Part shown: positions 9,367 to 64,000 of the stretch, piece after piece
How the letters are laid out: each line of letters opens with the position of its first letter
How positions within the stretch are numbered: the first letter of the stretch is position 1
NCBI GenBank assembly: GCA_946699065.1
Contig: CAMPDV010000015.1
Location: forward strand, 1,240,001 to 1,304,000
Length of the DNA: 64,000 bases
Direction of reading: 5' to 3'
From: Loxodes magnus
Taxonomy: Eukaryota > Ciliophora > Karyorelictea > Loxodida > Loxodidae
Notes under the pieces: generated by a model
Told to the model about the DNA's origin: nothing
Database searches by the model: none
What the model saw: only the letters and a program-made list of their open reading frames with translations
Translations under genes and position numbers: made by a program

Positions 9367-12045
9367 TCAAGATTCACTTTCTCTATCGCTTGTATTTTAA
9401 TAGTTACCATGTCCTTCATTATTATATAATTATTCTTTCGATTAAATATTTTATATTGGTTTTTTCTATTAGAATCCAGATTTCTAATACCTTTAATGTC
9501 GCTAAGACTGTTGAGAAGATTATTATGGAGTTTAGCTAGAACAATCACTGCAAAATTAATTTTAAAAATTTTAGTTCTAACCAGATTTTTAAGCACAAGT
9601 TTAGCAAAAAGTTTCATTACAATTTTAGCATGTTCAGATTTCCTAAGTAGAATTACAAGCAAATAAATTGCATTAAAAGCAATAATTAAATTATACTTCA
9701 GGACAAAAAAATTTTTCACAGATAGTACATAATCTAATGCAACTGTTACATAAATTACCTTCGCAGTGAGAACATTTAATTAATTTGCAATTTTGACATT
9801 TTTTATAGAGGCAATTTTGATTAAAATTATCTTAATGAGTTTTGCAATATCATTCATTACATTTCCCTTATATTTCACCACAATTTTTTGAATAGAAATT
9901 ACTACATCTTTTGCAAACATTTTTTATTTTTTAGCAATCCATATCATTTTGTTTACGCCCAGTTCAATTTTAGCAACGCTTTATAACAAATCAGCAGATT
10001 ATAAAAGTTCCCACTGGGATTAAGATAGAACATAATATAATAGTTAATTTTATATTTTTTTTATTATCATCTGCATTTTAATGTTCTTATTTATAATTAA
10101 TCCTTACTATGCCTGTCTATTTACATATGCATTCATAATTAAAACTTGTATCAGTTTTATTTAAATTGCAATGGCTTCCATCATCTCATGCTTAATTTTC
10201 TGAATCTCACATTTAGCATATAAGAGATGAATTATAAGTATCCTCAAACCAAATTTTAAAAGTTACTTTAACGCTTTATTCTTTTGGAGGATTTAACTAA
10301 TTGTTGAAACCATTTTCATCTTATGATCAACCTTAAAAAATTTTAATTCCTGTATGATTTAAAAAATTATTATCGTTTTGACAAGGATCATAATCAAATT
10401 AAGCTATTATTACTATCTAGCCGCTTTAAAGTTTTTCATCTATTGTTACAAAATGAAAATCTTATGATTAGGACTAATAATCATTTATGATCATATAAGC
10501 ATATACTTTAAAGTAATTTAAATTTAATGAAATATTCTATTTAAACTTTATATCTGGGTTCATATATGTCATTGAATATAGCAAATAGTTCTTATAAACT
10601 ATTTCTCATATCGTTGAGCTTTTTTTATTTTTTTAGTCTAAAAATCTATTTTATGTACTATTATAGCTCACTTATTTATAAACCTCTCAATTTTATTTAT
10701 TATACAAAGCTCTTACCATTTTATATTTTTATTTTTCTATATTATAAATTATCAAATCAATTTTCTCTTTTTGTTAATCGTAACCCTCTGGAATTTCTAT
10801 TCAGTCCAAACAACTGCTAACACTATCTATATAGTTTTGCTAATTATTTAAATAAACTTTATCAAGTAAGTAATAAAGACTTAGAGCTGCGTTATTTTAA
10901 TCTTACCAACTATTCAAATTCTAAGTCATCTTTTATAATATGATTTCTTCTTCTTAAGTATCAAGAATATGATATTCCATTATAATTAAAACTGACAAAT
11001 CATATATGTAACTTTATGCTTCTAAACTAGAATCAAAAGCTTTATTTTATAAGTTTTAAATTTCTTCAGTTATACTTAAATTTTTTTATTCAATGTTTAT
11101 ATTTTAGGAAACTTAAGTACATGCACGGAATTAGTCGCATATATCTACGCATAATTCTAGTTTTTTGCTTTAATAGGCTTAAAAGTAAGGTAATTGCACT
11201 GATACATTGCTAATTGTAGTATCAGAGTTTAAAAATATTTTTTTATCGTAAAATCCTTTATAAAAGAAATGATAACTTAATGGATAATCTCCTTCAAAGT
11301 CTTTATTGCATGAACTCTAAAGAACAAATTAAGTACTTCATGATTATCCTGACTTAGGATTTATACTTAATTCACATTTTTAAGGAGGCTAAGTTACATA
11401 AATTTATTTTTTTGGATTAAAGTTTTATTCTTCTTCACTTTTCACATCTAGTGTGAATGTATATAATTATCCCATTTAAAGTTTGGAAGCATCTATATCA
11501 ATTTCTTGTTAATGAAAATTAAATGAAGATTCCTTTATATTTCCTGGATCTTAAACTCACTTAAAGTCTTTAATTTTAAAATTTTGATCATTATACTTTA
11601 TGCCTAACTTAAATTACTCTTTAGGATTTACAGTATTAAAGTCGTAATCTTATTTATATATATAGATTGGCTTAGAAAATTTTTCAATTACGTTTATTAA
11701 AACTTGACTCGTATCTTCCTATCCATCGCCAGTAGAGGCTTTAACTTACAAATAGAATGTAAATCCTACTTGAAAATAATCACCTCTAAGGTTAATTTTA
11801 TTATTGGTGCTTTAACATTTTTCAAGGTATTTATTCAGTTACTCTTATGTTAAATTGCCTTTGAAGTCTTGAAAATCCGTACAGAATCATTCGAAGTTTA
11901 TATTTCTATTTAAACTGTCAAATGCTAAAGCTTAAAAATTCTAGTCTTAAGTCAATGTAAGATCTACTTACTCATCACCTGATATTAAAACTTTAAGTTA
12001 AGAAAATACAATTGTGCACAGACAAGCATACAGAAGTACTTTCAT
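9367..12045 (-). CDS. REJ-GPS single-pass receptor with Cys-rich cytoplasmic tail (unit A)
   Basis: One uninterrupted minus-strand frame, ATG 12045 to TGA 9367-9369, 892 residues. Order: signal peptide (residues 1-16, MKVLLYACLCTIVFS), an extracellular region resembling the REJ (receptor for egg jelly) module of polycystin-1-type proteins (a PLSYHFFYKG block near residue 240), and a GPS-like motif at about 605-650 (CQMWD ... DDGSHC ... CIC). One membrane span follows at about 667-690. The cytoplasmic part at about 700-830 is rich in CxxC pairs and probably binds metal, and the tail is Gln/Ser-rich. The canonical HL|T cleavage residues of the GPS are absent. In-frame TGA codons give Trp at expected places such as IWTC. 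It is head-to-head with the large gene starting at 12364. Likely a plasma-membrane receptor; ligand unknown. Confidence 0.8.
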
Positions 12046-24400: not shown

Positions 24401-24540
24401 AAACATAAAAAAGAAAGAAGGAGTGAAAGATAAGGCATAAGATTAAGCCGAAAATTTTAAAATTATTATAAAATATTTGGTAGAAGAAGGCCATTTTAAC
24501 AATTAATAGAATTTAAAAAAATTTAGTCTAAAGTTTAAAT

Positions 24541-27212
24541 TTTTTTAATCTAAAAGATATCTTACTTATCTATTTCCTCTTCCAAAATAATATAATCAAA
24601 TTCGGATTTTTCTTAATTAATTCCTGTTTTTGCACTTTAGCTTGTTTATTATTATTAATTTTTCTATAAAAACTAATTATTAAAGTTATTTTCATTTTAT
24701 AAAAACTGTTGAGAAGTTGATTTTAATTGAATGCCTGTGCATTCATTGCATTATCAATTTTAATGGCCTTAGTCCTGATTTTAAGCACATTTCTAACAAG
24801 AATTATCATTACAATTTTCACATGTTAAGATTTTGCAAGTAAAACTGCAAACAAATGAATTGCATTTCAAGCAATAATTAAATTTTTGTCCGGGACAGAA
24901 ATTTTTTGTACAGGATTAACACCATCTAATACAGTTATAGCAAAATTTTTGTTTACAATGTTGACATTTTATTAAATCACAAAATGGGCAATTATAAAAT
25001 TTGCAATTTAGGCAATAATTAGTCTTATGTTCTTTGCAATATCACTTAGAACATCTTAAACATTCCTTAGCATCTTTTTTTTATATTGAAGTTCTACATT
25101 TTTTACAATATATTTATGTTTACTATATGAAAATTGGTGCAAATTAAAACTGATTATTTCCGTTATGGCTCCTTTTATAGTAAGTAATGAGGATAATGAA
25201 GAGAATTATTAAAATTACCACTGGGATTAAGATAGAACATAATATAATAGTTAATTTTATATTTTTGTTATTATCATCTGCATTTTAATGTTCTTATTTA
25301 TAATTAATCCTTACTATGCCTGTCTATTTACATATGCATTCATACTTAAAACTTGTATTAGTTTTATTTAAATTGCAATGACTTCCATCATCTCATACTT
25401 CATTTTCTGAATCTCACATTTAGCATATAAGAGATGAATTATAAGTATCATCAAACCAAATTTTAAAAGTAACTCCCACATTTTTTTCTTTTGGAGGATC
25501 CATTTAAATGTAATTCCTGTATGATTTAAAGTTACGTTATCATTTTATCATGGATCGTAATCAAATTAAGCAATAATTGCTATCTAACCGCTTAAAAATT
25601 TTTCATTTATTGTTACTAAATTAAAATCCAAGGATTAAGAATCAGAATCATCAAAGATAAAGTGCGTATATAATTTATAGTCATCTGAATAAAAATAAGT
25701 ATCTTGCTAAAATTTAATATCTGGATTCATATTTTTCATTGAATAAAGTAAATTGTTTTTATAAATTATTTCTCATATCGAGGTGTTTTTTTGACTTTAC
25801 TAGTCTAAAAACCTTTCTTATCTTCTAATATTTTTCCGTTGTTTCAGTTTTTTCTTTCTCATTTCATTAAAAAAATTTCTGCTTTTTTAAGATTATATTG
25901 ATAAAATATCACTAATTATCTATTCTATCACTTCTTGTTATTAATCGTAATAATCTGGAGTTTCTATTCAATCTAAACAACTGCTAACACATCTTAAATA
26001 AATTAATAAATTCTCAGATGATATTAAATTTAATTAATGTTAGAGACTTAAAATTGCGTTATTTTAATCTTACCAACTTTTCAGATTCTAAGTCATCTTT
26101 GATAATATGATTTTTTCTTCTTAAGTATTAAGGCTATGATTATCTATACTAGTTAAAGCAACCAGATAATATATATAATTTTATGCTTCTAAACTAGAAT
26201 CAAAAGATTTATTTTATAAGTTTTAAATTTCTTCAGTTATACTTAAATTTTTTTATTCAATGCTTATATTTTAGGAAACTTAAGTACATGCACGGAATTA
26301 GTCGCATATATCTACGTACAATTCTAGTTTTTTGCTTTAATAGGCTTAAAAGTAAGGTAATTGCACTGATACATTGCTAATTGTAGTATCAGAGTTTAAA
26401 AATATTTTTTTATCGTAAAATCCTTTATAAAAGAAATAATAGCTTAATGGATAATCTCCTTCAGAGTCTTTATTGCATGAACTCTAAAGAACAAATTAAG
26501 TACTTCATGATTATCCTGACTTAGGATTTATACTTAATTCACATTTTTAAGGAGGCTAAGTTACATAAATTTATTTTTTTGGATTAAAGTTTTATTCTTC
26601 TTCACTTTTCACATCTAGTGTGAATGTATATAATTATCCCATTTAAAGTTTGGAAGCATCTATATCAATTTCTTGTTAATTAAAATTAAATGAAGATTCT
26701 TTTATATTTCCTGGATCTTAAACTCACTTAAAGTCTTTAATTTTAAAATTTTGATCATTATACTTTATGCCTAACTTAAATTACTCTTTAGGATTTACAG
26801 TATTAAAGTCGTAATCTTATTTATATATATAGATTGGCTTAGAAAATTTTTCAATTACGTTTATTAAAACTTGACTCGTATCTTCCTATCCATCGCCAGT
26901 AGAGGCTTTAACTTACAAATAGAATGTAAATCCTACTTGAAAATAATCACCTCTAAGGTTAATTTTATTATTGGTGCTTTAACATTTTTCAAGGTATTTA
27001 TTCAGTTACTCTTATGTTAAATTGCCTTTGAAGTCTTGAAAATCCGTACAGAATCATTCGAAGTTTATATTTCTATTTAAACTGTCAAATGCTAAAGCTT
27101 AAAAATTCTAGTCTTAAGTCAATGTAAGATCTACTTACTCATCACCTGATATTAAAACTTTAAGTTAAGAAAATACAATTGTGCACAGACAAGCATACAG
27201 AAGTACTTTCAT
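24541..27212 (-). pseudogene. REJ-GPS receptor of unit B, disrupted by a 40-nt deletion
   Basis: It aligns with the unit A receptor at a constant offset of 15167 from the ATG (27212) down to about 25518, so it is intact that far. Between 25497 and 25518 it lacks 40 nt present in unit A (10291-10350) and conserved as coding in unit C. That shifts the frame just before the GPS, membrane span and Cys-rich tail, which are still recognisable in another frame (24550-25300). No TGA stop follows the Cys-rich frame within 400 nt. Most likely a pseudogene. A donor for gene conversion is possible, since its first 1.2 kb is almost identical to unit A. Confidence 0.65.
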
Positions 27213-37150: not shown

Positions 37151-40100
37151 TCAATGTAGATTTGGCATATCACAGAACAAACTATTGTCATGTGCTAATC
37201 TCATTTTCACTACCTTTACATTTCTACTGTTGATAATTTCTTTTTTTATTTTTGTTATCCAGAAAACGGAGTAAGGAGGAATAAGTGTTTCTTACTCAGT
37301 TTAATATTAGGATAATTTTTAAATTATCGCAGCATTCTAGCAATTTTAAGGAATTTCAATTTCTAGTAGTGTATATAATGTATTATTACTAGAGTTATTA
37401 AACATAAAGTTTAAAGCTACTTATCTATCAGAAGATGTAGCTAAGTAATGAGGTATTCTAAACCCTAAATCTCATTATTTCATATCGAAATTTTAGAAGC
37501 ATTCATCATCTACACCTCTATAAACCCATCTTTCTTATAAATTATGTTTAGGGCTTTCTTATACTATTAAGTTATTTAAAGTTCTCATCCATGGCATCAT
37601 ACCTGTAATCCAATTTTTGCATTAATCTTCTGAAAGATTTCATTTATTTTGTTTTATATTTTCTTAAAACATAGACATACTAATTAAAGCCTTTGTAGAT
37701 GCATAACCACAAGAATTAAGTGTTCAAAGTCTAACACTTGCTAATTAGATAAGAGTTTATTCATCTTATATGTTTTAACTTTAAAAGTATTAGACACAGC
37801 TGTTTCAATCATTCAAAGCTGTTTAATTTAGTCCAAATTAAAGTTAATTAAACCCTTATTCTATTGATTGCAAAGTTTGAAATTTAGGAGTATCATCATA
37901 AACTTACATATAAAAGCTCTTTTTTGCTTTCTAAATAAGTTAATATCTCGAACTAGCTAGACAGATGCCAGTACAGTTATTGCAATATAAATTTTAGCAC
38001 TATTAACATATATTTTATACGCATTGCTTGCAGAATATATTATTACAATGGCTGCAGTTATTCTTAAAACAATTAAAGCAACTATTGCTATTGCATTTTT
38101 AGCATAAGTTAAATTAATGAATTGTACAAGATCATTAAGCACAGCTTTAACATTATCTTATACAGTTGCTACAAAATCTATTGTTACAGTGTTTGCATTA
38201 TACTATGGGACAGTTTTAGCAAATTTAACTTTTACAATTACTACATTAGTTGAATTAATGATTTGTGCATGACTGGTAGTTGCAAGTTTAACATTATAAA
38301 ACACATTTATTGCATATTCTAATGTTGCATTAGTAGCATAATTACAATGGACAGTTTTAGCAAATTTAACTTTTACAAATACTACATTAGTTGAATTAAT
38401 GATTTGTGCATGACTGGTAGTTGCAAGTTTAACATTATAAAACACATTTATTGCATATTCTAATGTTGCATTATTAGCATAATTACAATGGACAGTTTTA
38501 GCAAGTTTAACTTTTACAAATACTACATTAGTTGAATTAATGATTTGTGCATGACTGGTAGTTGCAAGTTTAACATTATAAAACACATTTATTGCATATT
38601 CTAATGTTGCATTATTAGCATAATTACAATGGACAGTTTTAGCAAGTTTAACTTTTACAAATACTACATTAGTTGAATTAATGATTTGTGCATGACTATT
38701 AGTTGCAAGCTTAACATTAAATAGCACATTTATTGCATATTCTAATGTTGCATTATTAGCATAATTACAATGGACAGTTTTAGCAAGTTTAACTTTTACA
38801 AATACTACATTAGTTGAATTAATGATTTGTGCATGACTATTAGTTGCAAGCTTAACATTAAATAGCACATTTATTGCATATTCTAATGTTGCATTATTAG
38901 CATAATTATAATGGACAGTTTTAGCAAGTTTAACTTTTACAAATACTACATTAGTTGAATTAATGATTTGTGCATGACTATTAGTTGCAAGCTTAACATT
39001 AAATAGCACATTTATTGCATATCATATTGTTACATTAGTTACATTATTTTTAAAAACAATTAGGACAAACTTATCTATTACAACTTCTGCATTGATTAAA
39101 TTAATGATTCGAACAAAAATTTTAGATACAACTTTAGAAATTGTTTTGGCAATTTTAGCAGCATTTCATTGAACAAGATATACAATTTTGGTATTACTTT
39201 TACATGTCTGAGCTTTCAGAATGATCACATATATTTTCTCTTTTAGTTTGTGGCTCTGTGTTTACTTATCCATCGAATTTGCTTTTTGGTTATTCCCCAC
39301 TAGAAACTTTTTATTTTTTTCATTTTTTGTAAATTATTACTAATATACAAATAATAAAGAATGTTGGGATTACGACACAAACTATTATTATATTCTTTTT
39401 TGATATTTTTTCGTGACTGTCATCTTTAGAATACTTATATCCTTTTTTATAGTTTATCCTGACAATACCTGGTTTTTAACACTTACATTCGTAATTGAAA
39501 CTGGCGTCTGTTTTATTTAGAGAACATTGATTTCCATCATCTCATATTTCTTTATCTGGATTCCACATTTAGCATATAAGATATGTATATTAAGAATCTT
39601 AAAAATAAAAGTTAATTTTAATTGGTTTATCTTATTCAATTGGAGTATTTAACTATTTATGAGCTCCATTTTCATCTAATTCTCATATTTAAAAAATTTT
39701 AACTCCAATAGCATTTTAAGGGGTATTATCACTTGAGCAAGGATCATAAGCAAATTAAACTATGATTACTATATGACCGTATTAAAGTTTTTAATCTATT
39801 GTTACAAAATTAAAGTATTAAGAATCAGAATCATTTGAGATAAAATATGTATAAAGTTTAAAGTCATTTGAATAAACTTCAGTATCCTAGTTAATCTAAA
39901 TATCTGGTTTCATATAAGTCATTGAATATAGTAAATAGTTCTTATAAACTATTTCTCATACTGAGGAATTATTTATACTTTCTTAATCTAAAAATCTTTC
40001 TTATCATTTAGAATGTCTCAGTTATTTAATAGCTTTCTAATTGTCTGATTCGAGCAAATATCTTTCTTATCTAAAATTTTTCAGCATAATATCACTAATT

Positions 40101-41395
40101 ATTTATTCTATCACTTCTTTTTACTATTAGTACTAGTCTGGAGTTTCTATTCAGTCTAAACTTCTGCTAATTTAATTTAAATAGTTTTGAATTTTATTAA
40201 AAGGAACAAATTTTAGTAATTATTGAAGACTCAGAAATGCGTTATTTTAGTCTTTCCAATTCTTTAGATTCTCATTTATCTTTTATAAGATTATTTCTTC
40301 TTCTTAAGGATTAAGGCTTTGTTAATTTAATATAAGTAGAGCTACTAAATCATATATGTAATTTTAAACTTCTAAGCTAGAAGTAAAATGTTTATACTTT
40401 AAGTTTTAAATTTCGTTAGTTAAGCTTTAATTACTTTACTCAATGGTGATTATTTAGGATACTTAAGTGCATGCATTGAAATAATCGCATATTTCTACTA
40501 ATATTTCTAGTTTCTTTCTGAAGAGCATACTAAAATAAGGTAGTTGAACTTATATTAAGCTATTTGAAGTATTATAATTCAAGAATAGTTTCTTATCGTA
40601 AAATCCTTTGTAAAAGAAATTATATTTTAAAGGATAATCTCCTTCAGAGTCGTTGTAATTTTAGCAAAAAAGCTAAAACTAAGTATTTCATGCTTATCCA
40701 CTCTAAGGATACACGATAAATATACCATGCTATGGAGGCTTAGTTACATAAATTTATTTTTCTAAGTAAATACTTTATCCTTCATAGCTAACTGCTTCTA
40801 GTATGAATGTATAATTTTACCCTACTTAAAGTTTAGAAGCATCTATATCAATTTCGTATAAGAAATAATTGTATGAGGATTCTTATATATTTCCAGGGCT
40901 TTAGCTCCATTTAAATTCTTTAATTTTAAAATTTTGGTCGTTGTATCTTATACCTAGCTTAAATTTTTCTTTAGGACTCACGGTATTGAAATCAAAATCC
41001 TCTTTATATATAGAGATTGGCTTGGAATATTTCTCAGTAACTTCAATAAGAACTTAACTAGTTGCATTTAATTCTTCGTTGACTAAAGCTTAAACTTATA
41101 AATAGAACCGGAATCCTGGCTCAAAATAATCACCTCTAAGGTTTAGATAGCTATTGGAACTCTCACACTTCGAAAGATATTGAGTGATTTACTATTCTTG
41201 TAAAGAGTCTATTAGGTTTTAATAAGGCAAGCAAGATCATTAGTATCTTATTTTTCTATTAGACCTGTCAAATGCTATAGCTTAAAAATTCTAATTTTAA
41301 GTCAGAGGAAGTTCGACTTAATCCTCACCTGAGATCAGAATTTTGAGTTACGAAAATACAATTGTACACAAGCAAGCATACAGAAGCACTTTCAT
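37151..41395 (-). CDS. REJ-GPS receptor fused to Cys-rich repeats and a C-terminal ADP-ribosyltransferase domain
   Basis: One minus-strand frame, ATG 41395 to TGA 37151-37153, about 1414 residues. It has a signal peptide (1-16), an REJ-like ectodomain, a degenerate GPS (about 605-650, C-x-C without HLT) and a membrane span at about 665-690 (VCVVIPTFFIICILVIIY). A Cys-rich cytoplasmic region follows at about 700-1165, including six 47-residue repeats. An in-frame TGA at 37805 would end it at residue 1196, but the same frame continues into a mono-ADP-ribosyltransferase domain. That domain has VYRG with R1293, ATSSDRQVALNF at 1319-1330 and EQETLIPPYSVF with E1367 and E1369, the R-S-E triad with an ExE motif. 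ExE is typical of arginine-specific enzymes using NAD. Since TGA is Trp throughout this gene, read-through is the simpler model. Inferred role: a receptor with intracellular ADP-ribosylation output. Confidence 0.75.
38203..39045 (-). repeat. Six tandem 141-nt repeats encoding 47-residue Cys-rich units
   Basis: Exact 141-nt spacing (matching blocks at 38251, 38392, 38533, 38674, 38815 and 38956) with very few differences. In the gene's frame each unit has about nine Cys in CxxC-type pairs plus one His (CTNHQFNQC). This is the expanded tail of the unit C receptor; unit A has one non-repeated equivalent. High identity suggests recent expansion or homogenisation. Confidence 0.9.
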
Positions 41396-48189: not shown

Positions 48190-51100
48190 ATGAAAATTCT
48201 ATGTGCAGGAATTTTTATTCCCCTAGTTATAGTTTCTTCTATATTTTTCATAGTAGAACCTTAAAACGATAAAAGCTAAATTGTTTTGAGTACAGGAACT
48301 CATAATTTTGAGCATATTACTTTGGATAATGGATTATAAGCTATTGTTATAAATAGCTCAAATTTGAATTAAAATGAAGATATTGTTGCTCTTTCATTAC
48401 CTGTTGGATACTTGCACGAAAACAATACATAAGGCATAAGTAGATTTTTATAGAAAATGATATTGCTACCAAGTGAGAAATAACCACAGGAAATAGATTT
48501 ACTTAGCTTTGTTTAATAAAATTATGGTTTCTTTAATTCTTTTACCACTTTATAGGAAACTAATTTTTATTTCAGTATACCTAAAAACTCTTCGTGTAAG
48601 GCATTAGAATATTTAGCAGCATTTCTTAAATTCCATAATTTTAACAGAGTAGATGAAAAAGCATAGAGGATTGATGAAGAATATAAATATGGATCTTTTA
48701 TTTATAGTTAAACTGAAAGCTTTATCATTTATTAAAACTCAAATCCGCAAAGTTCGTTAAGAAAAATAGGAATGAAAGGATCAGCATTATTTATCAACTA
48801 ATCTACTTCAGAATCACTTCTTTAAGAAGCTAAAATCTTTTTTGAAAAATTTTATTCAGCTAACAAGATAAAACTTGTAGTATTTTCGTCGAATTAAATA
48901 GAAGATTTATAATAAATAATAGAATAAGAGTTTAAAGATATTCCTATAAGAGGAAAAGAGGAATATTTTTAAATTAATTAAATATCTTTTAGAGAAGAAG
49001 AGTGTCAAAGAATATTCTTCATTTAAAGCTTGATAAAAAGAAACGAACTGAATATTTTCTGACCTATAAAAGGAGAATGGAAAGATTAAAAAAAATAAAA
49101 TTTCTAGCTATTTGAATATTTACTATCTACTTCTTAGTAAGATTCACTTCAAAGTATACTCTAATAATAAAAATTAGCATTTAGAGTACTTGCTGCAAGA
49201 TGGATTCAAATGCAAAATTAAGAGGTATTAAGAATTATTGTTCAACTAACTAATTTCGGATTTGATAACTACGAGAAAGTAATAGATCTAATTTTTTACT
49301 ATTTAAAGGAAACTTTATCAAATTAAACTGATGAGAGAATATAACAGAATAATGAATATATCTAGAAAATGAGCTAAATTAATTATAATTGAAGAAAAGT
49401 AGATCCTCTAGAAGAAATATCCGAAATAGCTTTTAATATGCATAGATATGAAATTTAAGATGTAGTGTAGAGGTAAAAATTATTATAATAACAAAGCATT
49501 GAAGAAATTAAAGCATTTTTAGAAGTTCTTATTAAAGCAAATTCATTTATAAGTTTAGTTTCTGATTAAGTTTAAAATATAGTAGTTTTGGATAAAGGAT
49601 TATTTGGAGTAAAATATGCTATTTAGAATTACCCAGTAAAATTTTAAGAATTTTCCAGTTAGATAAAAGAGAAGCTCTAATTTCCTTCTAGCTTAGTAAA
49701 ATATATACCTAATGTTCCAATTGAAAATGATAAATCAAACATAAAAGACAGAGATAGGTGGATTTTTTAATGTAAAGATCGCTATTATATATCAAATAAT
49801 GAAATATAAAATAAAAATGAATCATATGCTAATATTTACATTAACTCATAATTAACCACATTAAATTCAAAAAATTACGCAATGACGAAAATTTATGCAA
49901 CCATTCTTGAGTAACACTTAAATGAGAAATTAGCTTAGTTTATTTGAACTGGTAGAATTATTTAAACAATGGTAAAGAAGATATCACTTAAGATTTTTAT
50001 AAAGGGATTTAATTATTATAAGAATCCAATAGTGTTGCAAGTATTAAAAATTATAAATGAATTTTAATTTGAAGAACATCATTTCTATCTAGCAAAAGCT
50101 TAAATATAGCACGATTATAATTCTTTATTGTATGATAATGAGATATAAGCTGAATAATATACAAGAAAACTTACAGTTGAAAATTTTTATACTTATGATG
50201 AAATATTAAAAGAAATAGAAAAAATAGATTTTCAAAGTACTTATAATTACATATTTTAAGATTTAAAACCTTCATCTATCTATAAAATTTACTTTCACTA
50301 ACATTAAGAAGTCTCATACTTATAAGATTTAAAAGAGCAACTGAGCAATATGACTTAAAAAAGTAAATAAATTTCAGCAAACTTGCCATAAATTTTTATT
50401 CCTAATGATACTATTTATAGAGAAATAAGTGTATAGCAATAATTACCCTTAAACATTCTAAAAATAACCTACTTAATAAGCAAAAATATCTTTTCGAATA
50501 ATAACCATTTGCTATTTATATGTTTTGTTCTATAAACCGAGATGATTAAAATGTAAAGAGATTACGAAAGTTAATGTCCTTCATGTGATTTTGATAATTT
50601 ATTTTATAATAGTTATCATTCTATTTCAGTTACAATATAATCTTACAAATACCCTCCTCATTATTTAAGTGCTAAGTTTTAAAATTTAATTTATGAAATT
50701 TTCAACTCCCAAACTCTAGAAAAATAATGAAACCATTGAAAAAATGTTAATTTAATTTTTAGGAGAAGCTCTATAAATATTTTTATTTTAACTCCAGAAA
50801 GAAAACTAGTTGAATAAGTATAAAACACTGAAAAAAGTTATTTTGAATAATTTTATTGCAGCTATCATCAAAAAAAATAGTTAGAGATATATGAAGAGCT
50901 AAACTTACCAGATAATTAATTCATGGTAGAAAACATTTCATAAATATAAGAGTCTTTCAAAGAGATTTTCTAGAGAAATCCAGGATTTGAAATTTAAATT
51001 TATAGTTAAGAGCTAGAAATTCCTGATGAAGCTTATCCTGATGCAGTAGGAAACTTTTCTTCGTTGAAAACAAATTTTAGAGAAAGTAAAGTTGTTAAAC

Positions 51101-59802: not shown

Positions 59803-62800
59803 TCAAACTATTTTATTTTTCTTGACAGATTTGCTATTTTAACACATTTAATAAAAATTTAAAACTTTTTTCACTTTTTCACTTTATTTTAATATTTAAA
59901 TTTAATAAAAATAGCTATTTGAGCTTTTATAAAGTTTGCTTTAAGTATATTTTAAGTCTATTTATGTGTTTTTTAAAGTTTACTTAAATGGTTATTTTAA
60001 AATTGTTTAATCCTTTTTAATTTAATTATTATTAAATTTTAAGTTTTTTTCATGAAGCAAATTTAAAAGGAAACATTTAAAATTTTTAAAGATAATTAAT
60101 AAGTATTAAATTTTATTTTAATTGTAGAGTTATAGAGTTTAAGATTTCGCGCTCAGCATTCCTATAATTGAATCCATCTTTATTTCAAGAGAACTCATCT
60201 TGACTTCAAGGAAATCCATCTTTTTATTAATATCGCTAGCTTGAATCTAAAGTTCGACTTCTTTAATCTTAGAATCCATATTTTATGTCAAGCAGACTAA
60301 ATTATTTATTTTTTCATCAATAGAACTTGTTTGAGTTTTAAGAATCGCTATTTATTTTATTTTTGTCTCAAGAGATTCCAATTTATCATTGCTTTATTCA
60401 ATTTTTTCGTTTATTTTATCTTCAGTTCTTTTAACGCAGTCTTTTACATCGGAAACTTTTCCTTCCCATCCAAAGTTTTCTTCTTAATAATAATTATCGC
60501 ATATATGAAGATACTTTTCCTAATAATCTGGATTCCAAAGTTAAAGAATCTATTCTATCTCAAGAATAACTTCAGCCATTTCTCGAAAATCATAATACAC
60601 TTGCTAAATTTAGAACTCATCAAAAGAATCTCCTAAAATTGAGATGATCATATTAAGCATTATAACTACATTTAAAATAACAGCTAAAAGGAAGGTAATA
60701 TATATTATGCTAAGTCCATCTCTACTAAAGACTCCTGAATCTCCTGCTATTAAATCAAAAGAAGAAATCCATAAATTTTGAAATGAAACTTCTTAATCCG
60801 TTGCTGCTATATAAAGAAGACCAAATGCTAATGTAGTATAAATCATTATTGAAAGGAAATATCTTATATTGTAAAAGGAATCTAAAATCAATTTTATGTA
60901 ATATCTTGTTTCAGAAAATGCCTTAAAGCCTGTAATTCCACGCAATAAATTTAAGAGTAATACAATCCAATTAAATGTTCCAATTTTGATATCCTATAAA
61001 CAAAAATATAGCCATGGAATCATGCAAATAACTCTAATTATGTCTATAATATTCCAAGCGTTCGAAAAATATTTCCATCCAGTAACTCGAACTTAAAGGA
61101 GTTCTCAAATAAGCAAAGTGATATTTACTAAAACTAATAAAATCCAGGAAAAGTAAAACAAAGAAAAGGGCTTAATCATTAAAACAACAATAAGGAAAAG
61201 ATTCATTCATATTAAACAAGAAAAAGAAAGAATTCAGTATCATAAATATTTCCACTTTAAGATAATATAACTTCTTATTATTTTATGCTTGTATAGTTCT
61301 TTGTCTTTTGAATCAAGGAAAGCTTTCAATAATTCTATGCTTTGAGTAGAACCAGGCACAGAAGGTAATTTAAATCAAGAAGTAGATATTTTAATGTGTT
61401 CTTTAAGTTGATCATCAATTTATTAATAACCCTTATAAGATTTTTAATTTTTGTTGATGGTATATCAAGTGGTTGGTTAATTAGAATCTTTAAAAAGATC
61501 GAAGCTTTAAGTATGCCAATCATCGAATTTTATGCGCTAGTCTTATTAAATGAAAGTAAAATCACGTAGGTTTTTATTAAAATAAAGTTAAGAATTAAGA
61601 AATTAACTTAATTAAGTTGAAGAATTGCTTACGATTAAAGGAAAATCAAGTTATAGGGATAAAAACTATGATCGTTAATAATAAAAGTCATCAGATTACA
61701 GTTAAGATAAAAAATCCAAAAGACAATCAGTGATATTCTAATGTTGGTTCACAATAGAGTAAAATAGAGGGGATCGACCAAAAAAGTCAGATTTTATTTT
61801 AATATCAGGAAAACGTTCAAAAGCATTTTTTATAATATCAGTTTTTCCCTAAAGGCAAGCAAAATGAAGTGGAGTATATAAAAAAGCTGTTAATTAGCAA
61901 TTTCAGTAAGAAACTCCTTCAAAGAAATCGTTGCTAATACAATTTCAAGTTCCTAAACACGCATAAAGCTTTTAGTTTTCAAAAGGTATATGAAACAAGT
62001 CTCGTTAAAATCGGAAAAAATCGTTAATTTAAGGAATTTATTATTTTGAAAAAGATGCTAATTCTGAATAATCTTTAAGATTTCTGAATTCAACAGATTT
62101 TTATTGAATACTAGCAAGTAAAGATCCGTCAGGACTGAAACAAATAAAGTTTTCAGATACATAATGACCTTAGAAAGTGATAATTTCTTTAAACTCATTA
62201 AGAGCTCATATCTTTATAGTCTAATCCATTGATGCACTAGCAAGTAACATTCCATCAGGGCTGAAGCAAACACATGTTACAGAATTTTTATGGCCTAATA
62301 GAGTAACTATCACTTTTTTTTCCTAAAGGTTTCATAGTTTTATAGTTTTATCACTTGATGCGCTTGCAAGTAATGATCCATCAGGACTGAAACATACTCA
62401 TTAAACAAGCGATTAATGTTCATAGAGAGTTACGATTTCTTTATTGTCTTTAAGATTTCATAGTTTTATAGTTTAATCAAATGATGCGCTAGCAAGTAGC
62501 AATCCGTCAGGACTAAAAGAAATACATCTTATAGAATTTGTATGACCTTAAAGAGTAACGATCTCTGAATTATCTTTAAGACTTCAAAGCTTTATAGTTT
62601 AATCATCTGAAGCGCTAGCAAGAAATGATCCAAAAGGACTAAAAGAAACACAGGTTACATAAGTTGAATGTCCTTTGAGAGTTGCAATTTCCTTTTTTTC
62701 TTAAATATTTCATAGTTTTATAGTTTAATCAAATGATGCGCTAGCAAGTAGCAATCCATCAGGACTAAAAGAAATACATCTTATAGAATTTGTATGACCT

Positions 62801-64000
62801 TTGAGAGTAGCGATCTCTAAATTATCTTAAAGATTTCAAAGTTTTATAGTTCTATCATCTGAAGCGCTAGCAAATATCAATCCATTAGAGCTAAAAGAAG
62901 CACAGGTTACAATTTAGGTATGATCTTGGAGAGTTATGGTTTCTTTTTTTTCTTAAAGATTTCATAGTTTTATAGTTGTATCTCATGAAGCACCAGCAAG
63001 TTACGATCCATCAGGACTAAAAGAAACAAAGTTAACTAATTCTTTAAATCCTTTGAGAGTCACAACTTCTGAATGGTCTTTGAGGTTTCATAGTTTTATA
63101 TTTTTTTCCACTGATGCGCTAGCAAGTAACAATCCATCAGGACTAAAAGATATTCAGGTTACAGACTTAGAATGTCCTTAAAGAGTTACAATTTATTCTT
63201 ATTTTTTTAAATTTCATAGTTTTATACTTTAATCCATTGATGAACTAGCTAGTAACGATCCGTCAGGACTAAAAGAAACACAGGTTACAGTTTCTTTATG
63301 ACCTTTGAGAGTCACAATTTCTTTATTGTCTTAAAGATTTCATAATTTTATAGTTCTATCATCTGATGAACTTGCAAGCAATGATCCGTCGCGACTGAAA
63401 GAAACACATGTTACAGAATGTGAATGACCTTATAGAGTTGTGATTTCTGAATAATCTTTAAGATTTCAAATTTTTATAGTTGTATCTCATGAAGCGCTAG
63501 CAAGTAGTGATCCAACAGGACTGAAGGATATTTTGGACACTATACTTTTATGTCCTTGAAGAGTTATAATTTCTATATAGTCTTAAAGACTTCATAGTTT
63601 AATAGTTTAATCTTCTGATGAGCTAGCTAGTAACGATCCGTCAGGACTAAAAGAAACACAGGTAACATTTTCTTTATGACCTTTGAGAGTCATAATTTCT
63701 TAATTATCTTTAAGCTTTCATAATTTAATAGTTTAATCCCTTGATGCGCTAGCTAGTAACGACTCATCAGGACTGAAAGAAACACAATTTACAGAATTTG
63801 AATGACCTTAAAGAGTAACTATCTCAGGATTATCTCTTAAGTTTCAAAGCTTTATAGTTGTATCTCATGAAGCGCTAACAAGTAATGATCCGTCAGGACT
63901 AAAAGATACGCAGGTTACAGAATTTGAATGATCTTTGATAGTAACGATCTCGGAATAATCTTAAAGATTTCATAGTTTTATACTTCAATCACTTGATGCA
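59803..64000 (-). CDS. WD40-ankyrin-TRP-like cation channel fusion, N-terminus outside window
   Basis: A single minus-strand frame covers 64000 to about 60140 without a break. Domains in order: about 15 WD40 repeats of 42 residues (64000-62100; repeating FSPDGSLLASASSD and IKLW), ankyrin-like repeats (61900-61680; TPLHFACLQGKTDIIK, GRSPLFYSIV), then a channel domain (about 61270-60600). The channel has several membrane spans, a pore-like FDLIAGDSG and LNMIISILGDSFDEF, typical of the TRP/polycystin S6. A coiled coil with KMDSIIGML-type heptads follows. In most repeats the WD40 Trp is TGA. The coding signal weakens after TAA 60139-60141, while the first in-frame TGA is at 59803-59805, so the end is uncertain. 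Such WD40-channel fusions are known in ciliates; the role is probably ion influx with protein scaffolding. Confidence 0.8.
62100..64000 (-). repeat. Array of about 15 WD40 repeats, 126-nt period
   Basis: Repeats about every 126 nt, marked on the plus strand by recurring GCTAGCAAGTA-like and ATCCGTCAGGACTGAAAG-like blocks, continuing beyond the window edge. The high similarity between units suggests homogenisation. Confidence 0.9.

Follow-up and report, generated by a model that had tools for sequence, protein, structure and literature searches.

A REJ-domain receptor gene with a predicted cytosolic ADP-ribosyltransferase tail in the ciliate Loxodes magnus

Can one ciliate gene join a REJ-type receptor ectodomain to an intracellular ADP-ribosyltransferase (ART) in a single polypeptide? 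This question is raised by a locus in the window analysed here, a stretch of 64,000 nucleotides that corresponds to C15:1240001-1304000 of the Loxodes magnus assembly, forward strand (C15 being contig CAMPDV010000015.1). The gene occupies window positions 37151..41395 on the minus strand. Under genetic code table 27, the frame 41395-37151(-) runs for 1,414 codons before its terminal TGA, and the predicted product of 1,414 aa contains, in this order, a REJ domain, a GPS-like block, a membrane span, an array of CxxC motifs and the ART. A preliminary description of this DNA had placed the same parts in a single frame from ATG 41395 to TGA 37151; the frame is indeed continuous under table 27, and homology, codon comparison and paralogs all agree with it. 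The product is probably a type I membrane receptor, and its cytosolic tail would be an ADP-ribosyltransferase of the arginine type.

The protein starts with a signal-peptide-like N-terminus (residues 1-23, 41327..41395, minus strand as all features of the gene). Hydrophobicity was scanned according to Kyte and Doolittle (19 residues, threshold 1.6), and only two hydrophobic stretches were found, at residues 2-23 and 664-693. The REJ domain extends over residues 44-333 (40397..41266), where Pfam PF02010 matches with an E value of 2e-25, as the preliminary description had anticipated. PF02010 is found in the ectodomains of both the window gene and its close paralog A (described below), as in REJ/GPS receptors of the polycystin-1 type. 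Detection of REJ by Pfam varies with the way the protein is cut: L033, which is a part of paralog A, gives no match when its long CxxC tail is included, and a match of 2.5e-26 when the ectodomain is taken alone.

A cysteine block at residues 608-650 (39446..39574) was recognized as GPS-like by comparison with the canonical GPS of L030-L032. These three loci encode more distant REJ receptors that keep the HL-T site; two of them, L031 and L032, also match Pfam GPS (2.6e-6 and 1.8e-5). The degenerate GPS proposed earlier stands only in part: the cysteine block is located at the place of a GPS, but Pfam GPS does not match the window protein and the cleavage residues HL[T/S] are missing from the block. 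The same residues are missing from all eight receptor-ART genes that could be read in one frame, the window gene among them. Since the cleavage residues are lacking, self-cleavage is not expected.

The single membrane span (residues 664-693, 39317..39406; hydrophobicity scan) is situated between the GPS-like block and the CxxC array, where it had been predicted, and K/R residues follow it. The proposed topology draws on the signal-like N-terminus, this span and the K/R residues behind it. Polycystin-1 itself has eleven spans and a PLAT domain; PLAT was not found in the Pfam scan of the window protein, and one internal span is present in the window gene and five in its relative L012. The window gene is therefore like polycystin-1-like REJ/GPS receptors (PF02010, PF01825) in having REJ, a cysteine block at the place of GPS and a span behind it, and differs from them in the lack of a GPS cleavage site, in the lack of a detectable PLAT, in its one span and in the added ART tail.

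Behind the span lies a CxxC-rich array (residues 738-1146, 37958..39184), predicted to be cytosolic and delimited by CxxC count and tandem repetition. The CxxC-rich repeats noticed previously are confirmed by 43 CxxC motifs in residues 720-1146, and a part of the array is a 141-bp tandem array (38208-39037, 5.9 copies, 97% matches). The remaining residues, 1147-1414 (37154..37957), constitute the ART region with an N-terminal part and a catalytic core, which form one conserved block in paralogs. Pfam ART (PF01129) matches residues 1284-1386 with an E value of 9.8e-9 and 35.3 bits, above the curated cut-off of 22.3, so that the absence of any profile hit, feared in the preliminary description, did not occur; ADPrib_exo_Tox matches as well (2.2e-5). 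Arginine, serine or threonine, and ExE make up the motif of the R-S-E clade of ARTs. All were found at the positions previously proposed for the transferase: in an alignment of 19 ART rows, R1293 (37517..37519) is R in every row, T1320-S1321-S1322 (37430..37438) has S or T at 1321 in every row, and in E1367-x-E1369 (37289..37297) the second glutamate is present in every row and the first one in 15.

In the four other rows (L013, L014, L017 and L021) glycine replaces the first glutamate of ExE, and arginine transfer may therefore be lost there. This brings up the alternative that the receptor is built as described, but its ART is a pseudo-enzyme or merely a NAD-glycohydrolase and the tail acts as a binding platform. 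A catalytic motif alone is no proof of activity, and the four substituted ARTs, all from other loci, point in the same direction. We nevertheless regard this alternative as improbable, because R, S/T and ExE are retained in nine of nine receptor-type ARTs examined and because dN/dS of the ART core is 0.47 between close paralogs. ART activity, arginine specificity and membrane topology are all predictions made from sequence.

Where no codon always means stop, an open frame alone is not evidence of a single polypeptide; each TGA between ectodomain and ART was therefore checked separately. According to the L. magnus genome paper (PMC11441545), the species uses table 27, in which UGA is the sole stop and alternatively encodes Trp, and UGA and UAA within coding sequence become scarce over approximately 20 codons ahead of true stops. 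The paper gives introns as short (mean 19.3, mode 17 bp) and 3'-UTRs as short with 18.6% GC. In the window gene, in-frame GC is 20-38% in most 60-base windows, with a minimum of 12% at the membrane span. Ahead of the start it is 13% over 60 bases (41460-41401) and 18-25% farther upstream; the 60 bases that follow the terminal TGA have 12%. Rfam gave no match at gathering score, and no tRNA was detected.

As table 27 permits TGA as stop, two genes might be present instead of one: a REJ receptor ending at TGA 692 or 1197, and a separate CxxC-ART or ART gene behind it. The tail module does exist alone, as follows from L018 (C15:1421400-1431200), where an ART follows some 2,000 residues of CxxC array and nothing in approximately 20 kb upstream matches the ectodomain at better than E 0.6. 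TGA codon 692 (39320..39322), at the end of the membrane span, is moreover stop-like in that the 51 preceding codons contain no TAA or TGA. In paralog A, however, this codon is TAT, and A is free of TGA between codons 620 and 1167. Coding signal is found directly behind TGA 692: the in-frame coding score is 10.0 at codons 693-717 and 11.4 at codons 701-725, while 234 non-coding-like windows do not exceed 4.8. When all six frames of the analysed stretch are taken, coding windows included, 11.4 is reached in eight of 5,118 windows. The first ATG past TGA 692 is codon 731 (ORF start 39205).

TGA codon 1088 lies inside the CxxC array, a position that suggests a sense reading. TGA codon 1197 (37805..37807) is preceded by four TAA among 20 codons, whereas there is none ahead of the terminal TGA. 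Across the 19 aligned ART rows this codon is TGA in 13, TGG in L009 and L010, TTT in L018 and L022, GAA in L024 and TAC in L025, of which L022, L024 and L025 are distant and only loosely aligned here. Between the window gene and L012, TGA is exchanged with TGG at codons 163, 415, 611, 1269 and 1379, which shows a Trp reading of TGA. The terminal TGA (37151..37153), on the other hand, has 46 preceding codons without TAA or TGA and corresponds in the alignment to the last TGA of paralog A. The preliminary description had made the join of receptor and ART depend on reading TGA 37805 as Trp. This reading is borne out by relatives of the ART in the genome, which have TGG or TTT at this codon, and by the surrounding block, which is common to other ARTs; TGA 692, a second possible end, had been overlooked and is sense as well. 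Codon substitutions, coding signal and TAA pattern led us to reject a split at TGA 37805 or TGA 39320, and two genes are in our opinion very unlikely.

Paralog A (C15:1394.7-1403.4 kb, minus strand; adjacent assembly pieces L035 and L033) has the same order of parts in one frame of 2,903 aa. It is 89% identical to the window gene in the ectodomain and 84% in the ART, and carries 210 CxxC motifs in an array that starts at approximately residue 760. In L012 (C15:1174.8-1178.7 kb, plus strand), too, the parts follow each other in this order within a single frame; it has five internal spans, its CxxC array is shorter, and identity is 46% in the ectodomain and 59% behind codon 1197. The N-termini of paralog A and L012 resemble the signal-like N-terminus of the window gene. 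In paralog B (L034 and L036), the ectodomain is distributed over more than one frame and is followed by CxxC motifs and an ART 76% identical to that of the window gene. The L035 and L036 pieces reach Pfam ART (1.9e-6 and 1.3e-6). L029 has its ectodomain in three frames, then the final part of the ART alone, and looks broken. At about 2.9-3.3 kb of L029, where CxxC array and first ART part would be expected, the DNA is GC-richer, internally repetitive and insertion-like. Two further REJ ectodomains occur in the window itself, at 9367-12045(-) (3.5e-23) and approximately 24421-27212(-) (7.2e-24). Both are followed by a span and a short CxxC stretch, no ART was seen behind either of them, and the latter has a frame change near 25.5 kb.

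Window gene and paralog A were compared by the method of Nei and Gojobori. dS is 0.02 in codons 1-240, 0.06 in 241-480, 0.19 in 481-663, 0.27 in 664-691, 0.66 in 692-760, 0.35 in 1101-1146 and 0.14-0.18 in the ART segments. This mosaic divergence, with the first 240 codons nearly identical, suggests gene conversion. dN/dS is 0.44, 0.51 and 0.58 along the ectodomain, 0.20 in codons 1101-1146, 0.55 in 1147-1283 and 0.47 in 1284-1390. In the comparison with L012 dS exceeds 1, and only the excess of silent change can therefore be interpreted. These values bear on the possibility that the window gene is a decaying pseudogene which is open by chance, as might be thought from its same-contig relatives L029 and paralog B with their frame changes. 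We rejected this explanation, which has hardly any probability left, on account of 1,414 codons free of frame change, dN/dS below 1 against A in the main segments, intact catalytic residues and the stop signature at the terminal TGA.

The search was extended to the whole genome (705,730,643 bases in 7,843 contigs). With the ectodomain as query, 64 places were scored from 577 candidates; with the window ART, 65 matches were obtained and all 66 candidates scored; REJ matches numbered 93 scored out of 197 candidates. Counts of this kind are lower bounds, as the PF01129 search, which found 18 places, misses the window gene and paralogs A and B, and the PF02010 search likewise misses the window gene. 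Nineteen ectodomain pieces have a same-strand ART at most 8 kb downstream, which corresponds to 17 distinct ART loci. In this unselected pairing 13 of the 19 pieces share the frame with their ART, a count that represents no probability, the family copies being related and not independent. Some pairs on separate contigs have the same gap between ectodomain and ART (742 on C815 and C1274, 865 on C1453 and C815), so that part of the pairs are likely to be duplicates of recent origin, alleles or assembly duplicates.

Nine of the 17 loci were read through, and so was L040, whose ectodomain is 25% identical and outside the ectodomain-search list and which was read without a start. In eight of the ten (window gene, A, L012 and L037-L041, but not B and L029) one frame is open from ectodomain to ART. 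This is a selected figure, because L037, L038, L039 and L041 were picked once coordinates had shown a shared frame; L040 was not. The ARTs of L037-L041 match the window ART at 8e-34 to 8e-61. Three to five hydrophobic stretches separate ectodomain and ART in L037-L041, as in the one-frame members generally, with the exception of paralog A, which is window-like. By eye, L037-L041 have no CxxC array save a short piece in L040. This anatomy suggests that the window gene and A, with their single span and long CxxC array, represent a derived state. In a tree of 18 ARTs, from which the divergent L022, L024 and L025 as well as L037-L041 were left out, the four receptor ARTs (window gene, A, B and L012) group together with a support of 90/95, below the star assigned by the tool. 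By these comparisons, the window gene is one member of a multi-locus family of putative receptor-ARTs. Two further ART matches were observed on C15, one just before the window (C15:1238511-1239296, plus strand, 42% identical) and one at C15:1192767-1193558 (plus strand, 73% identical).

Several observations weigh against the reading as a receptor with an ART tail. Full-length L037-L041 reach Pfam ART in none of five cases and Pfam REJ in two of five, and the L012 ectodomain has no Pfam REJ match even at E 10. Short segments of the window gene are less constrained against paralog A (dN/dS 1.04 in codons 1147-1196, 0.75 in 692-760 and 0.70 in 664-691). An AlphaFold2 model of the ART together with Rotaria P0002 (two sequences) had a pLDDT of 39.7 and was not used. 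Finally, frame changes or a missing ART are seen in some copies (L029, paralog B, and the window copies at 9367-12045 and about 24.4-27.2 kb).

To find known relatives, databases were searched with both ends of the protein. A single ART sequence found nothing in the PDB up to E 1, and of the 170 candidates that it drew from the protein database not one reached E 1e-3. With an ART profile, 14 sequences in the PDB were matched at E values up to 1; Vis (3.3e-4) and T-cell ecto-ADP-ribosyltransferase 2 (1.1e-3) came first, and the weaker matches include bacterial toxins and effectors. Against 5.8 billion sequences, one of 891 candidates was retained by this profile at E <=1e-3, Rotaria P0002 (427 aa, E 4.3e-4). 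Its ART is joined to other repeats, which we take from their Pfam numbers to be TPR-type domains, unlike the receptor context of the window gene. Ectodomain residues 20-500 gave no match among 6,184 candidates in the same large protein database even at E 10, and NCBIfam contained no match near cut-off. The preliminary description knew of no family with REJ-to-ART order, and no precedent came up in our literature search, which covered few subscription papers and yielded none that joins "REJ domain" with "ADP-ribosyltransferase"; nothing resembling a REJ receptor-ART appeared in titles and abstract beginnings. The main text of the L. magnus genome paper (PMC11441545) does not contain the terms "adp-ribosyl", "REJ" or "receptor".

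Like ARTC arginine-specific ADP-ribosyltransferases (PF01129), the window ART exceeds the Pfam cut-off and has R, S/T and ExE. ARTCs are typically GPI-anchored, outward-facing ectoenzymes or secreted, as stated in a publication on them (PMC8003356). In contrast, the window ART is part of a receptor and predicted to be cytosolic, since its position C-terminal of the predicted span and the CxxC array points to the inside. The predicted arrangement of ectodomain, span and cytosolic enzyme as a single chain is that of enzyme-linked receptors, among them receptor kinases and receptor cyclases. Unlike in these, the output of the window gene would be NAD+-based protein ADP-ribosylation.

How could such a receptor work? 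The likeliest mechanism would be receptor-triggered arginine ADP-ribosylation in the cytosol. The ectodomain with its REJ region would bind a ligand on the surface of a partner, prey or microbe. As the GPS would not be cleaved, outer and inner parts would remain covalently joined, and ligand binding might cluster or reorient the tail. The CxxC array, which probably binds zinc and varies in length, could serve as a spacer or as a scaffold. The ART would then move ADP-ribose from cytosolic NAD+ onto arginines of nearby proteins, and ARH-type hydrolases would take it off again; the corresponding eraser family, PF03747 (ADP_ribosyl_GH), has 30 genome matches from 31 candidates, three of which, on C137, have identical scores. 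We infer, as was proposed earlier, that ligand sensing outside may be coupled to NAD-dependent modification inside.

Clusters, mosaic divergence and broken or ART-less copies would fit a recognition role (mating, prey or microbes) under changing pressure. A use in defence is also conceivable: after recognition of microbes, viruses or prey by the receptor, the ART would serve as a toxic effector, directed at the intruder or at the ciliate's own cell, and not as a signalling enzyme. The clustering, the copies that have changed frame or lack the ART, the mosaic divergence with its hint of gene conversion and the many eraser matches are in line with such use, yet receptors for mating type or prey recognition fit the same pattern, and we find defence doubtful, if still the most plausible of the alternatives to a signalling receptor.

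Some other genes were noticed. In L011 (C2132:30700-40400), Pfam UCH (2.2e-11) and ART (2.9e-11) match in one translated frame, and L016, L019, L020, L023 and L026 resemble it by eye; a deubiquitinase-ART fusion as in L011 would be unusual. Ordinary neighbours in the window are an insulinase-type M16 peptidase (48253-51054, plus strand) and a WD40-repeat protein (61297-63999, minus strand).

Direct action through an attached enzyme is known in receptors for phosphorylation and cyclic nucleotides, and what is known of arginine ADP-ribosylation in eukaryotes comes mostly from ectoenzymes and bacterial toxins. That karyorelicts possess enzyme-linked receptors encoded at multiple loci, with cytosolic arginine ADP-ribosylation as direct output and hydrolases as erasers, and that this is a previously undescribed signalling chemistry, is a proposal whose chances we judge to be evenly balanced. 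If it is true, an intracellular arginine ADP-ribosyltransferase on a receptor would be a further direct receptor output, and eukaryotic arginine ADP-ribosylation would gain a defined upstream trigger. The family, with one or three to five spans, with and without the CxxC array and with and without the ART, offers a natural series within one genome, in which the gain of an output domain can be traced.

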